Assembly: GCF_001427865.1 (NCBI RefSeq)
Contig: NZ_LMHH01000001.1
Location: 496,001-560,000 of the forward strand
Direction: 5' to 3'
Origin: Altererythrobacter sp. Root672
GTDB lineage: Bacteria > Pseudomonadota > Alphaproteobacteria > Sphingomonadales > Sphingomonadaceae
DNA: 64,000 nt
The position numbers were made by a program, and so were the translations under genes. Under the pieces are notes generated by a model. It had not been told where the DNA came from, ran no database searches, and saw only the letters and a list, made by a program, of their open reading frames with translations. Shown here piece by piece: positions 43,529 through 48,180 of the stretch (its first letter is position 1; each line of letters begins with the position of its first letter).

Positions 43529-44848
43529 ATTCAAAAAATCTGTTGGCTCGTCGCAGCCGCGCTTGCGGTCGCGACGCCCTGCGCTGCGCAGGATTCGCCG
43601 GAGGCTTCTGTCAAACTGACCGCGGTGGAGCTGTTCGGCTTCGCCGATCGCGCGCGTGCAGCCGGCGATTACACCGCGGCCGAAACCGCTTATCTCGCCC
43701 TCGCGCAAGACCCCGACTTGGAGTTGCAAACTGAGGCGCGCTTCCGCCTGGCGACGCTTTATGCCGACCAGATGGATCGCAAGCGTGATGCGGCGGTCCT
43801 GCTGCGCAGGATTCTCGACGACAAGCCAGAGGCAGCGCCGGTCAGGCTGAAGCTTGCCCAGATCCTCGCCGAATTGGGAGAATACCAGGCTGCCCGGCGA
43901 GAACTGCGTGCAGTGCAGGCCGGCGGCCTGCCGCCCGAAGTCGCCCAACTCGTCCGCTTCTACTCGAATGCGCTCAGCGCCACCAAACGCCTGGGCGGCA
44001 GCCTCGATGTGGCCATTGCGCCCAGCACCAATATTAACCGTGCCACTCGGTCCGATACGCTCGGCACCGTGATCGGCGACTTCACGCTCAGCGACGACGC
44101 GCAGGCGCAGTCGGGTGTCGGCCTTTCGCTCAAGGCACAAGGCTATGGTCGCGTGCCGCTCGACGCGAAGACGGACTTGCTGGTGCGGGTGAACGCCGCT
44201 GGCGATCTCTACCGCCGCTCGGAGTTCGACGATGTCACGCTGTCGGTGCAAGCGGGGCCGCAGTTCATCTCGGGCCGGGATCGCCTGGCACTGTCCGTCA
44301 CGGCCGGGCATCGTTGGTACGGGCTCGATCCTTACTCGGTATTCTACGGTGTGTCCGGTAACTGGGAGCACCCGCTCGACGACAAGACCCAGGTTCGCAT
44401 CGATGCCAGCGCGCTCAAGGACGACAACACGGTCAACCGCTTGCAGGATGCCGACCGCTTCACCGCCGCTGTAGGACTCGACCGGGCATTCGGCAGCACG
44501 ACCGGGGGAGGGGTGCGCCTGTTCGGCTCACGCGACGACGCACGCGACCCGGGCTATTCCAACACTTCGGGCGGCGGCAGTGTCTACCTCTACAAGGACG
44601 TGGAACGCACGACGGTGGTGGTCAACGCGGCCTACCGCCGGCTGGAAAGCGATGCCCGGCTGTTCCTCTATCCGGAGCGGCGCAAGGACGACAATCTCGA
44701 CCTGTCGCTCTCGGCCACCTTCCGCAGCCTGACCGTCAGCACTTTCGCCCCGCTCACGCGCGTTCGCTACGAGCGCAACTGGTCGACCGTCGGGATCTAC
44801 GACTACGACCGGGTTGCGGTCGAGTTCGGGGTGGTGTCGGCGTTCTAG
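43529..44848 (+). CDS. Slam/DUF560-like outer-membrane protein, ATT start likely
   Basis: The protein has an N-terminal TPR-like region (YTAAETAYLALAQDPDLELQ, then LRRILDDKPEAAPVRLKLAQ) and a C-terminal beta-barrel of ~280 residues ending in Phe (EFGVVSAF). This is the layout of surface lipoprotein assembly modifiers. The first usual start, GTG 43625, would leave no signal peptide. Upstream, the frame is open and encodes a good one (KICWLVAAALAVATPCAAQ) beginning at ATT 43529, with GGGAGGGG ending 3 nt before it and its GGAG core at 6 nt. No ATG, GTG or TTG in frame has such context, so I use the ATT. Length from there is 439 residues. Confidence 0.78.
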   Translation: MQKICWLVAAALAVATPCAAQDSPEASVKLTAVELFGFADRARAAGDYTAAETAYLALAQDPDLELQTEARFRLATLYADQMDRKRDAAVLLRRILDDKPEAAPVRLKLAQILAELGEYQAARRELRAVQAGGLPPEVAQLVRFYSNALSATKRLGGSLDVAIAPSTNINRATRSDTLGTVIGDFTLSDDAQAQSGVGLSLKAQGYGRVPLDAKTDLLVRVNAAGDLYRRSEFDDVTLSVQAGPQFISGRDRLALSVTAGHRWYGLDPYSVFYGVSGNWEHPLDDKTQVRIDASALKDDNTVNRLQDADRFTAAVGLDRAFGSTTGGGVRLFGSRDDARDPGYSNTSGGGSVYLYKDVERTTVVVNAAYRRLESDARLFLYPERRKDDNLDLSLSATFRSLTVSTFAPLTRVRYERNWSTVGIYDYDRVAVEFGVVSAF

Positions 44849-45066: not shown

Positions 45067-45996
45067 ATGATCAGACGTTCCCCGGGAGCCACTCTGACGG
45101 TCGCCGCCGGCCTAGCGTTGCTCGCTGCGCCGGCCACCGCGCAAGAACGCGCGGGCACTCTGGAAATCGGGCCTGAGTTCACCATCAGCGCATCCGTTAA
45201 TGGTGCGCCGATCACACTGCTTGTGCAGCCCGAATACACTGAGGCGCTGCGCCTTCTGAATGCCTCTAAGGCCCAGGAAATCGGCCTCAAACCTTCGATG
45301 ATGTACCTCGTCGAGAACGTTGGTCCGATCGAGCTTCTTGGCAAAAGCAAGAAGGTGACGCTGACGATCGAGGGCACGACGCACGACAAGCGGGTGGCGT
45401 GGTACGACACCGAGGTCACGACCAAAGCCGATGGAGTAATGACCCCCGGCGCGCTCCCTTACAGCCGAGTGGTCTTCCAACTCCGATCACCGACCGAAGG
45501 TGAGCAGGTGACAACCTTGCCGCTCGATCCAGTCCGCGAACGCTCATTCAAAGGTGGCCAAGCCTGGACCACCATCGCGGGACGCAAGGTCACTATCGCG
45601 TTCAATTTCGAGCGAGCACCAACACTCACCAATGCTTCCACCGGCAAGTTGCTTCTCGATGCCAGTGGCGGAAGCGTGGATACGCAAGGCATGGAAACTG
45701 AGGTCCGCTTGGGACTGATGAGACCGACCAATCTCATGCAGCTGAATTCACCTGTCAGCATCGGCGGCTTGGATCTGTCGATCCTAGCCGTGAGGACGGC
45801 TGACGACGGGCAGCTCGATCCGGGCACCGTGCGCCGTTCACCCGATGAGAATGAGATCGTGGTCGAAGCTGCGCCCGGCAAGACGCCCGATTACGAAATC
45901 GTCGTGGGAAGTGAGGACCTGAAACATTGCTCGAGCCTCACATATGACTTCGATGGAGGCACGCTGGCGATGAGCTGCATGCCTAGAGGAGGCTAG
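45067..45996 (+). CDS. Secreted protein resembling a retropepsin without the catalytic motif
   Basis: The 309-residue protein has a signal peptide (MIRRSPGATLTVAAGLALLA, cleavage near ATAQ). The segment SASVNGAPITLLVQPEYTEA followed by ASKAQEIGLKP has the strand pattern of a retropepsin-like domain, but where D(T/S)G is expected it reads QPEYT. The C-terminal part, IVVGSEDLKHCSSLTYDFDG then GTLAMSC, looks like the second conserved strand pair of such folds. It is therefore probably an inactive relative or a binding protein. Its end overlaps the convergent M50-like gene by 14 nt. A GTG one codon upstream is an alternative start. Confidence 0.6.
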   Translation: MIRRSPGATLTVAAGLALLAAPATAQERAGTLEIGPEFTISASVNGAPITLLVQPEYTEALRLLNASKAQEIGLKPSMMYLVENVGPIELLGKSKKVTLTIEGTTHDKRVAWYDTEVTTKADGVMTPGALPYSRVVFQLRSPTEGEQVTTLPLDPVRERSFKGGQAWTTIAGRKVTIAFNFERAPTLTNASTGKLLLDASGGSVDTQGMETEVRLGLMRPTNLMQLNSPVSIGGLDLSILAVRTADDGQLDPGTVRRSPDENEIVVEAAPGKTPDYEIVVGSEDLKHCSSLTYDFDGGTLAMSCMPRGG

Positions 45997-46762
45997 ACCA
46001 CTCCGCTTGCAGCTCCTGCCAGATGGCCCAACCGTCGTGTCCCTGCAGAGGGGCCATTGCCATCATCGCCCTTAGCTGACCAACGACCGCTGCAGGGAAC
46101 AGGACCGAGGGCCAACAGCCAATTCCTGCAAGCCCAACGAGGATGCCGCAGAACGCCGAGTGGATCGCTGGCCCAAACGCGTATGCGAGAATCCTGTCCG
46201 ACCGCGAAGCCTGACCAATCGGAGTGATGTCGACCACGAACGATGGTCCAACCCGCGAGACCCCTGCTCTGATCGACCCGACCGCGCCGGTCTTCGACAG
46301 ACAGACGGCGGCATGCCCCATTTCATGAGCTAGCCCGCCGGCGACGATAGCCAGGACGATTCCGGCAACGGCGCCTGCCCAATTGAGTGCCGTGACCAAG
46401 GGGAACGCCACAAGCGTGGCGGCCCACATGCCGGCACTGAACGCAAGCGTAATCCAAAGGGCCGGCCAGCCAACAACTCGTGTGAAGGGGGCGCACGCCA
46501 GCTCAACAATGTAAGAGGGCACCCGCAACACTCGGGCCCGCGGAACGACACCCTCACTGATAGCGCCTGCTGCCCATAAAGCGTTGAAGAGCGCCCGGCG
46601 AAAATCGTTCCGATCGACAGGCTGAAATCGGCGCAGGCGTTCAAGAACAAGCAGGTCCTCCCGGCCAAGGCCGCTCAGCTTCTTTCGCAGGGTTCCGATC
46701 GCCAAAACGGCAAAGCCCGGCCCCAGAAGAATGTCGTCACCTCTAAATGTGAATGAGGGCAT
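45983..46762 (-). CDS. Membrane HExxH protease, M50-like, with N-terminal winged-helix-like domain
   Basis: The 259-residue protein has HEMGH at residues 146-150 inside a hydrophobic segment, and PLQGHDGW near 238-245, the place of the third zinc ligand (DG motif) in M50 site-2 proteases. Hydrophobic helices cover about 83-145 and 195-235. The first 70 residues (FTFRGDDILLGPGFAVLAIG, then RNDFRRALFNALWAAGAISE) read like a small beta-hairpin plus winged-helix domain, reminiscent of RiPP recognition elements; this is inference. It overlaps the acyltransferase-like gene by 20 nt, so the two are cotranslated. Confidence 0.72.
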   Translation of the reverse strand: MPSFTFRGDDILLGPGFAVLAIGTLRKKLSGLGREDLLVLERLRRFQPVDRNDFRRALFNALWAAGAISEGVVPRARVLRVPSYIVELACAPFTRVVGWPALWITLAFSAGMWAATLVAFPLVTALNWAGAVAGIVLAIVAGGLAHEMGHAAVCLSKTGAVGSIRAGVSRVGPSFVVDITPIGQASRSDRILAYAFGPAIHSAFCGILVGLAGIGCWPSVLFPAAVVGQLRAMMAMAPLQGHDGWAIWQELQAEWSSLL

Positions 46763-47645
46763 CTATCCTCGCCGCGGTGCGCCTGGCAATCCAGTCCAGG
46801 ACGGCCTTGTCACGGCACACCCTCTCATCCGGCAGGTGATCGAGCGGAGAGCCCGAGCCGATACGGAAGGTTTTGCCGCGTTGAAGCTCAAAGAACAGTC
46901 GATCGCTTCCTCTCCGATAGCTCAAGCCGAAAGCAACGGCCCTCGCCGGGCGGAACATCCGATGCAGCTTGAGCAGGCGCTCGTACTCCCACGGCCTTTG
47001 GCGCAGCGAGTCATAGAGCGTGGCGAAATACCCTTGCATCCCGTTAAACAGGCGGCACCGAATAACGAACGAACCCCCTTCGTCTTCGACTACCTCGGCT
47101 TCGATCGGCGACGAATCCAGCAGGCCGATGAGGCGCACGAGGGTGCTTCGCGTGAAGAACGAACCGGACGGAAAGGCAAACTCAAGGTCTTCTTCGGCGG
47201 GTGACTGCGACCAGGCGTCGGGCAACATGACCACGACCGACCCCGCAGCCAGCGCCTTGCGGCACTCGACAATCAGCCGACGTGTCGGATGGATGAAATC
47301 AATCGAGAAGCCGCGCCTCGAGGCAAGCGAAGCAAGCTCCCGTTCGTACTGCGTGCCCTGATCTCCCACGATGGCGGATACGCGCGGCCCATCGGAACCA
47401 GCCCCTGCGAAGGCGCAATAGAGGAGCGCGAACAGACCGTTGTGACTGCCTACAACAAGACGTCCTGCAAAATCAGAAGCCTGCTCAACTCGGAAGTCCG
47501 GACTGGTCGTGCCGTGAAGAATGGCGTGATAACGCGCTTGAGTATCCAACCAGGTGTCCGGCATGCGCAGCGCTAGATCGTCGGCGATGCCCAGCTCCAT
47601 CAGCCTCATCGAGATGACTGCGCGACTGAAGTTGTCGATCTTCAT
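46743..47645 (-). CDS. LpxL-like (LPLAT superfamily) acyltransferase homologue
   Basis: The 300-residue protein resembles LpxL/HtrB lipid A acyltransferases. It has RLVVGSHNGLFALLYCAFAG with His68 where the catalytic His sits, and VVVMLPDAWSQSPAEEDLEF then PSGSFFTRSTLVRLIGLLDS, matching the LPDQ and FFG-x-LA blocks. The acidic partner expected about 5 residues after the His is Ala here, and no N-terminal membrane helix is seen, so activity and substrate are uncertain. It follows the small peptide gene and overlaps the membrane protease. GC content looks lower than in surrounding core genes, which may reflect transfer. Confidence 0.62.
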   Translation of the reverse strand: MKIDNFSRAVISMRLMELGIADDLALRMPDTWLDTQARYHAILHGTTSPDFRVEQASDFAGRLVVGSHNGLFALLYCAFAGAGSDGPRVSAIVGDQGTQYERELASLASRRGFSIDFIHPTRRLIVECRKALAAGSVVVMLPDAWSQSPAEEDLEFAFPSGSFFTRSTLVRLIGLLDSSPIEAEVVEDEGGSFVIRCRLFNGMQGYFATLYDSLRQRPWEYERLLKLHRMFRPARAVAFGLSYRRGSDRLFFELQRGKTFRIGSGSPLDHLPDERVCRDKAVLDWIARRTAARIDALIHI

Positions 47646-47656
47646 GAGCGATTGAA

Positions 47657-47686
47657 CCCATGCCTACCCATTTCGACCGGCATGGG
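47657..47686 (-). other. Stem-loop between peptide gene and its downstream operon
   Basis: CCCATGC (47657-47663) and GCATGGG (47680-47686) pair perfectly over 7 bp around a 16-nt loop, between the end of the 35-codon gene and the start of the acyltransferase-like gene. In peptide operons such a structure often allows much more precursor than enzyme to be made, by partial termination or mRNA protection. There is no T-run. Confidence 0.5.
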
Positions 47687-47702
47687 CCGGATCAACGCTG
47701 GT

Positions 47703-47810
47703 TTAGCAGCGGCAGATCTCTTGCTCGAAAAGGCGGAAGACCCACTCAGCGGCTTCTACGGTCTCGATCTCTTCCACTTCGATTTCGGCTACTTCATTGG
47801 CTTCGAGCAT
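47703..47810 (-). CDS. 35-residue acidic peptide, candidate precursor peptide
   Basis: The frame from ATG 47810 to TAA 47703 encodes 35 residues, starting MLEANEVAEIE and ending FEQEICRC. The first 22 residues hold nine Glu and no basic residue, like a leader peptide. The last 13 are aromatic and basic with two Cys in CRC at the C terminus. GGAGGG lies 5 nt before the ATG, a better ribosome binding site than most genes here have. The AT-rich promoter-like DNA upstream and the coupled enzyme genes downstream support a real gene. It matches no peptide family I know. Confidence 0.62.
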   Translation of the reverse strand: MLEANEVAEIEVEEIETVEAAEWVFRLFEQEICRC

Positions 47811-48180
47811 TGAGGCCCTCCATGTCTTGAACACTTGACCGACAGGGCCAAGCTGGTTCCAAATAACAGCAGAGCAGAGAAAATAAATGATTCTTTTTCA
47901 GATATTTAGATGAATAAATGCGACAGCACATTGATCCGTCGGCCGGCCTTTCTATGCCTGGGGCGATGGTCCATAGTAGCCCCACGTTCAAAGAGCAGTC
48001 GTTTCCGATCGGCAGGTGCTTCGCCCGTTTCCAGCGATTCGGTGATCTACACCTCTGAGACCGTACGACCGGCAGCACATTGCACCGCCGCCCCTCCACC
48101 CCCACATGGCTCTGACGCCTGTGGGGCCGCGTTGGCGCGCCTCTTGACCAACGCGAACATTTGCGGAACATCCTGCATCC
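47811..48180. other. 370-nt divergent spacer between the peptide operon and uvrA
   Basis: No gene is seen. Bases 47865-47935 are strikingly AT-rich for this genome (on the minus strand CATTTATTCATC and AATCATTTATTTT) and probably hold the promoter of the minus-strand peptide operon; several TAAATA/TTATTT hexamers fit a -10 but none is decisive. The uvrA-proximal end carries the SOS box. The middle has short open frames on both strands with no family-like sequence. Confidence 0.5.
48155..48169 (+). promoter_or_regulatory. Alphaproteobacterial LexA (SOS) box upstream of uvrA
   Basis: GAAC (48155-48158), seven bases, GAAC (48166-48169): this is the reverse complement of GTTC-N7-GTTC, the direct-repeat LexA operator of alphaproteobacteria. 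It ends 11 nt before the uvrA ATG, so LexA bound here would block transcription or early elongation. uvrA is a standard SOS gene, which supports the call. Confidence 0.85.

Follow-up and report, generated by a model that had tools for sequence, protein, structure and literature searches.

A probable RiPP-type peptide-maturation cassette with an LPLAT-fold protein in Altererythrobacter sp. Root672

The window analysed here is a stretch of 64,000 nucleotides from the genome of Altererythrobacter sp. Root672. Three genes packed into less than 2 kb of its minus strand form a cassette that encodes a small acidic peptide, a protein with the fold of the lysophospholipid acyltransferase-like LpxL superfamily (LPLAT) and an M50-type membrane protease. 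An earlier, sequence-only reading had placed these genes at 45983–47810. Its coordinates, including those of the 35-codon peptide gene, were exact, and the strong ribosome binding site, the stem-loop and the 20-nt overlap that it described are all present (Table 1). A fourth, convergent gene beside the cassette was absent from that reading. Scans of Pfam and NCBIfam gave no trustworthy match for any of the three cassette products, and the LPLAT-like protein is single-copy in its own genome. The cassette contains no dedicated exporter, and a scan for sigma-70 promoters found nothing.

Table 1. Features of the cassette and of the adjoining gene (positions in the window).
Feature	Position	Strand	Remarks
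Precursor-like peptide gene, 35 aa	47703..47810	(-)	MLEANEVAEIEVEEIETVEAAEWVFRLFEQEICRC; ATG start
Shine-Dalgarno sequence GGAGGG	47816..47821	(-)	5 nt ahead of the peptide ATG; read from the sequence
Hairpin between peptide and LPLAT genes	47646..47702	(-)	Folding compared with shuffles
LpxL-superfamily (LPLAT-fold) protein gene, 300 aa	46743..47645	(-)	
Overlap of LPLAT and protease genes, 20 nt	46743..46762	(-)	Identical length in Q. aestuarii
M50-type intramembrane metalloprotease gene, 259 aa	45983..46762	(-)	RiPP-maturation (daptide/epipeptide) branch, by sequence
HEMGH zinc motif, protease residues 146–150	46313..46327	(-)	Second motif DG, residues 243–244
Candidate RRE, N-terminal ~75 residues of the protease	46538..46762	(-)	AlphaFold model
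Convergent fourth gene, secreted degenerate retropepsin-like protein	45067..45996	(+)	Homologue likewise next to the cassette of Q. aestuarii

Protein and profile searches returned exactly one full-length relative of the LPLAT-like protein, in Qipengyuania aestuarii GH1 (L003/L009). For each of four ranks (order, class, family and phylum) about 400 genomes were searched, in draws that partly overlap, and the 60 species of the second genus were searched in full. Among the roughly 1,000 species covered overall, the close cassette family occurs in two only, and searches of plasmids, phages and viral contigs gave no match to the close LPLAT. The Q. aestuarii locus has the same order of peptide, hairpin, LPLAT-like protein and protease, with enzyme identities of 25% and 30%. 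Because it repeats the order, the overlap, the hairpin and a similar peptide, we conclude that a rare but coherent cassette exists. The sequence-only reading had asked whether the three genes always co-occur in sphingomonads. All three are present in both cassette-bearing species, which is uninformative because the cassette is so rare. Its association of a small peptide gene with the two enzyme genes is borne out in this sole close relative found, where such a gene lies upstream of both.

Acidic residues make up at least 31% of the cassette peptide and of no other product among the 314 ATG-started frames of 30–60 residues in the window. We divide it into a putative acidic leader (about residues 1–21) and a putative core with a C-terminal ICRC. 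The Q. aestuarii peptide has 44 residues and is likewise acidic. The two peptides contain ...AEWVFRLFEQEICRC and ...GIDLFPGDGVICRTT, each behind a leader rich in Glu, Val and Ile, and 33 of 5000 composition-preserving shuffles reach the score of their likeness. The frame is thus conserved at the amino-acid level as the sequence-only reading supposed, weakly but above shuffles. More distant precursors share a leader core, represented by IQLDELEDRIEF, SIVELEDRFET, AAVELDQRFEM and FKVEELEERLEM. The Q. aestuarii peptide carries IQLEEVEVRELE, and its score for this distant-leader motif was reached by 377 of 5000 shuffles (p ~0.08). The window peptide gave no significant match to the motif (2616 of 5000 shuffles). 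Several peptides have a cysteine behind the leader (ICRC, VICRTT, FICSPS, GLCSGG), and no Pfam or NCBIfam family fits the peptides scanned.

For the 57-nt gap on the 3' side of the window peptide gene the computed folding energy is -25.5 kcal/mol (z -3.1, none of 200 shuffles as stable). A strong hairpin was found behind the peptide gene in five of five loci tested, the others being those of Q. aestuarii (z -6.9) and of three more distant loci described below, from Lysobacterales (z -4.1), Roseateles (z -5.0) and Pelomonas (z -4.3). The hairpin sequences are unrelated and Rfam contains no family for the hairpin, which is a probable expression-ratio or mRNA-stability element.

The protease of Q. 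aestuarii (P0007) matches the Pfam M50 family PF02163 with 29.8 bits at a cut-off of 27.2; the window protease (P0003) gave no match to PF02163 over the curated cut-off. In NCBIfam the Q. aestuarii protein hit NF041824 (daptide_HExxH, 1.7e-8) and NF058609 (epipeptide LiaK, LiaK/YydH, 3.9e-5). Since both hits lie far below the equivalog cut-offs, we regard it as kin and not as a member of these families. All ten more distant relatives scanned matched both NF041824 and NF058609, with values up to 4e-45. The HExxH and DG motifs are invariant in 31 protease sequences, the Q. aestuarii version of the former being HELGH. On these comparisons the window protease belongs to the RiPP-maturation (daptide/epipeptide) kinship.

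The window protease was modeled with AlphaFold (pLDDT 81), and structural alignment of the model with RseP, SpoIVFB and MjS2P gave Z-scores of 8.4–10.4. As modeled, the protein has a site-2-protease fold, with the HExxH and DG motifs in transmembrane helices. Its N-terminus is built from three strands followed by two helices, which is the order of an RRE (moderate confidence; the underlying alignment held RRE-bearing relatives). The Foldseek/VIA matches spanned residues 82–258, barely covered the N-terminal domain and included no RRE. Most relatives of the protease bear an N-terminal RRE, and in the distant ones this domain was identified as PqqD/RRE by profile comparison (E 1.5e-9, none of 150 shuffles). 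The same profile gave no signal on the protease N-termini of the close pair. Judging from the model, the N-terminal domain of the window protease is likely an RRE.

A protease-based scan of the genome collection yielded at least 34 loci, one of them Q. aestuarii itself. The loci of Roseateles subflavus (L020) and Pelomonas (L021) contain a peptide gene, a hairpin, an RRE-M50 protease, an LPLAT and a radical SAM protein. A metagenome-assembled Lysobacterales genome (L029) has the order of the window, with three tandem peptide genes followed by a hairpin, an LPLAT and an RRE-M50 protease, while Galbibacter (L022) has two peptide genes and an RRE-M50 protease, then an α/β hydrolase and an LPLAT. 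Three of these LPLATs, from L020, L022 and L029, score above the cut-off of PF03279 (Lip_A_acyltrans). In 4 of the 34 matches listed (three of them independent) a PF03279 gene lies within 6 kb. With one to three PF03279 genes per genome, we estimate the chance expectation at <1%, and by this estimate the association is well above chance. The plasmid-borne M50 homologues showed no convincing LPLAT neighbours. The combination of peptide, LPLAT and M50 protease, the last with a likely RRE in the window and an RRE in the distant loci, recurs in at least four lineages.

Further RRE-M50 loci were noted. On two Hymenobacter plasmids (L148 4575-6902, L150 4582-7178) and at L011 2687-5600 an RRE-M50 gene stands beside a small peptide whose leader motif is of the EALDQRLET type (DG01) and a gene that by eye looks isoprenoid-synthase-like. 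This scaffold of peptides may thus be served by a second lipid-type enzyme. A Dysgonomonas locus (L019 3245-6780) encodes three peptides in tandem, which contain Cys and have leaders of the ELETRLET type, together with an RRE-M50 protease and, judged by eye, a probable radical SAM protein.

The window LPLAT-like protein (P0002) has no direct Pfam match, neither to PF03279 nor to GNAT. Together with its Q. aestuarii counterpart (P0004) it could be aligned over the catalytic core with 23 LpxL-family proteins, and none of 300 column shuffles was as good. Against a profile of LpxL plus the RiPP-associated LPLATs the pair gave an hhalign E of 7.9e-5 (none of 200 shuffles), and the LPLAT-superfamily assignment made from the sequence holds by this profile comparison. 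An AlphaFold model built from the two-sequence alignment was set aside (pLDDT 37; LpxM at Foldseek ranks 14-15, E ~0.3). The window protein keeps His68, Asp143 and the C-terminal YE..xxHR motif and has a C-terminal extension of about 70 residues. All RiPP-associated LPLATs keep H-x-G, the central-strand Asp and [YW]E..xxHR, with Tyr replacing the His of the latter in L020 and L021. The acid of the HX4(D/E) motif is lost: the window protein reads H68-N-G-L-F-A73, the Q. aestuarii protein H-Y-G-F-Y-P, and the acid is also missing in L020, L021, L022 and L029. The residues found at H+5 are Ala, Pro, Ala, Ala, Lys and Arg, compared with Asp or Glu in LpxL proteins. The LPLAT of L029 has a C-terminal RRE-like domain (profile E 0.0022, none of 150 shuffles), which ties this type of enzyme to a peptide substrate. 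The PqqD/RRE profile gave no signal on the C-terminal extension of the close-pair LPLATs. None of the 40 genomes most closely related to that of the window contains PF03279, compared with 47 of 50 genomes sampled from the phylum; the window LPLAT is therefore not a stray lipid A gene.

Based on the computed gene set and its recurrence, the protease family with its intact active-site motifs, the LPLAT homology and the acid loss, we think that the locus is probably a RiPP-type peptide-maturation cassette with an LPLAT-fold maturase. The sequence-only reading as a RiPP-like operon is thereby supported in part; it gains from the protease kinship, the conserved peptide and the independent loci. Against it stand the small number of close members (two), the insignificant match of the window peptide to the distant leader motif, the lack of an RRE signal in the sequences of the close pair, the lost LPLAT acid and the want of a dedicated exporter. 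As to substrate, sequence of steps, chemistry and role of the product, we infer the following. The 35-residue product would be a precursor, its N-terminal part an acidic leader and its C-terminal part a short core (~...WVFRLFEQEICRC), and the hairpin would keep its message in excess of the enzyme message. Guided by the leader, the LPLAT-fold protein would act on the core, the likeliest chemistry being an acyl transfer to a peptide cysteine or to the N-terminus that does not rely on the canonical HX4(D/E) acid. The N-terminal domain of the M50 protease, probably an RRE, would bind the leader, and the protease would then cut within the membrane, remove the leader and release the mature peptide, which could serve as a membrane-active bacteriocin or a signal. 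A true acyl transfer to the peptide seems possible to us, if somewhat doubtful. The suggestion of an acylated peptide in the sequence-only reading keeps the LPLAT homology in its favor, but is weakened by the loss of the acid from all RiPP-associated members identified. Because of this loss we keep another reaction or a carrier role of the LPLAT-fold protein in play.

In the carrier case the LPLAT-fold protein would be a non-catalytic carrier or scaffold for peptide or lipid, M50 cleavage would be the sole chemistry and the peptide, set free by intramembrane proteolysis, would stay unmodified. The lost acid is compatible with such a role, as is the epipeptide M50 protease EpeP, which is thought to perform both cleavage and export (PMC10885120). 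However, the His, the Asp and the C-terminal [YW]E...HR are largely kept across four lineages, which is unusual for a dead scaffold, and an RRE-like domain as in L029 is expected of a modifying enzyme. We therefore judge a mere carrier rather unlikely.

A good deal less probable is a role of the short frame as a regulatory leader, acting as an attenuator or by translational coupling. The two proteins would in that case belong to an envelope-lipid or stress system and leave the peptide untouched. The frame does lie in the mRNA leader with a hairpin behind it, and the hairpin alone would suit attenuation. Yet the peptides of two species resemble each other above shuffles while their enzymes are only 25–30% identical, L022 and L029 have two or three tandem copies of the peptide, the proteases fall into a RiPP-maturation family, and the absence of PF03279 from the 40 nearest relatives makes a role in lipid A unlikely. 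A mobile LPLAT-M50 pair that met unrelated small frames by chance is strongly disfavoured: the very rare, patchy distribution and the low third-position GC of the cassette (0.67–0.71 compared with ~0.75–0.92 in most neighbours) point to horizontal transfer, but one arrangement with its 20-nt overlap is shared by two genera and the set of small peptide gene, LPLAT and RRE-M50 protease recurs in three further lineages.

The RiPP-type cassette that we favor resembles several known systems in part. Daptide biosynthesis employs MpaP, an RRE-M50 protease (PMC10036551); common to both is an intramembrane M50 protease of a homologous family (NF041824) beside a small precursor gene, RRE-dependent in daptides and probably so in the cassette. 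The oxidative decarboxylase, aminotransferase, methyltransferase and MpaB-like protein of daptides were not recognised among the window frames inspected (41–52 kb), an LPLAT-fold protein is present in place of these enzymes, and the window peptide ends in Cys, whereas daptide precursors have a C-terminal Thr. With the epipeptides EPE/YydF (EpeP/YydH) the cassette shares a small precursor and an M50 protease of the same branch (NF058609). No radical-SAM epimerase was recognised among the same frames, and the cassette contains no ABC transporter. Pearlins combine a small scaffold peptide with a membrane M50 protease (TglG/TmoG; PMC10885120); their PEARL (LanB-like) and MNIO enzymes are absent from the cassette, which has the LPLAT-fold protein. 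LpxL and LpxM (PF03279) share the fold core, H-x-G and the central-strand Asp, with QYxWxHRRF in the position of [YW]E..xHR; the cassette type differs by the lost HX4(D/E) acid, a C-terminal extension of ~70–150 residues and the peptide gene alongside. Selidamides, attributed to Hubrich et al. 2022, are reportedly fatty-acylated RiPPs made by GNAT acyltransferases. The idea of a fatty-acylated ribosomal peptide is common to these and other acylated RiPPs, but the candidate of the cassette is by profile an LPLAT, a different superfamily.

No RiPP system with an LPLAT is named in NCBIfam, Pfam or the literature searched (subscription papers lay outside the search), and within that scope the statement that no described family has this gene set stands. 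That the loci of at least four lineages represent a separate RiPP class, with an acid-less LpxL-fold maturase on a leader-guided core and leader removal by an RRE-M50 protease, is a distinct possibility that falls just short of an even call. If so, they would make the first LPLAT-acylated ribosomal peptides or use a new reaction on the LpxL fold, and a lipid-acyltransferase fold would join the toolbox of ribosomal-peptide modification; confirmation of the chemistry would establish a new RiPP class. An acid-less PF03279 homologue, an RRE-M50 protease and a small peptide gene followed by a hairpin would then constitute a searchable signature. The cassette raises the question of which activity is left to an LpxL-fold enzyme that has lost its catalytic acid, and its three genes are few enough for direct reconstitution.

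The fourth gene is a neighbour of the cassette in both close members; its orientation is convergent in the window and co-directional in Q. aestuarii. Its product is secreted and retropepsin-like, degenerate and without the catalytic DTG; the two cassette-borne proteins have no match in Pfam or NCBIfam. We dropped this gene as an obligate partner and regard it as accessory at most, because its family (L065-L081) is widespread among sphingomonads that lack the cassette, sometimes in several copies (five in G025).

Elsewhere in the window, at 43625-44848 (+), lies a gene for a Slam-type outer-membrane protein with no adjoining substrate gene. In a congener (G004, L114 2358-6354) the Slam gene is followed by one for an 893-residue TbpB-like lipoprotein, probably the Slam substrate, which is located between Slam and uvrA. 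In the window the cassette has taken the place of this lipoprotein gene. Next to the cassette of Q. aestuarii (L047 6452-14301 (-)) we observed genes for a small GG-motif peptide, an asparagine-synthetase-like protein, HlyD and an ABC exporter with a C39 peptidase, together with an S9 peptidase weakly similar to lasso-peptide isopeptidases. This region looks like another peptide cluster.
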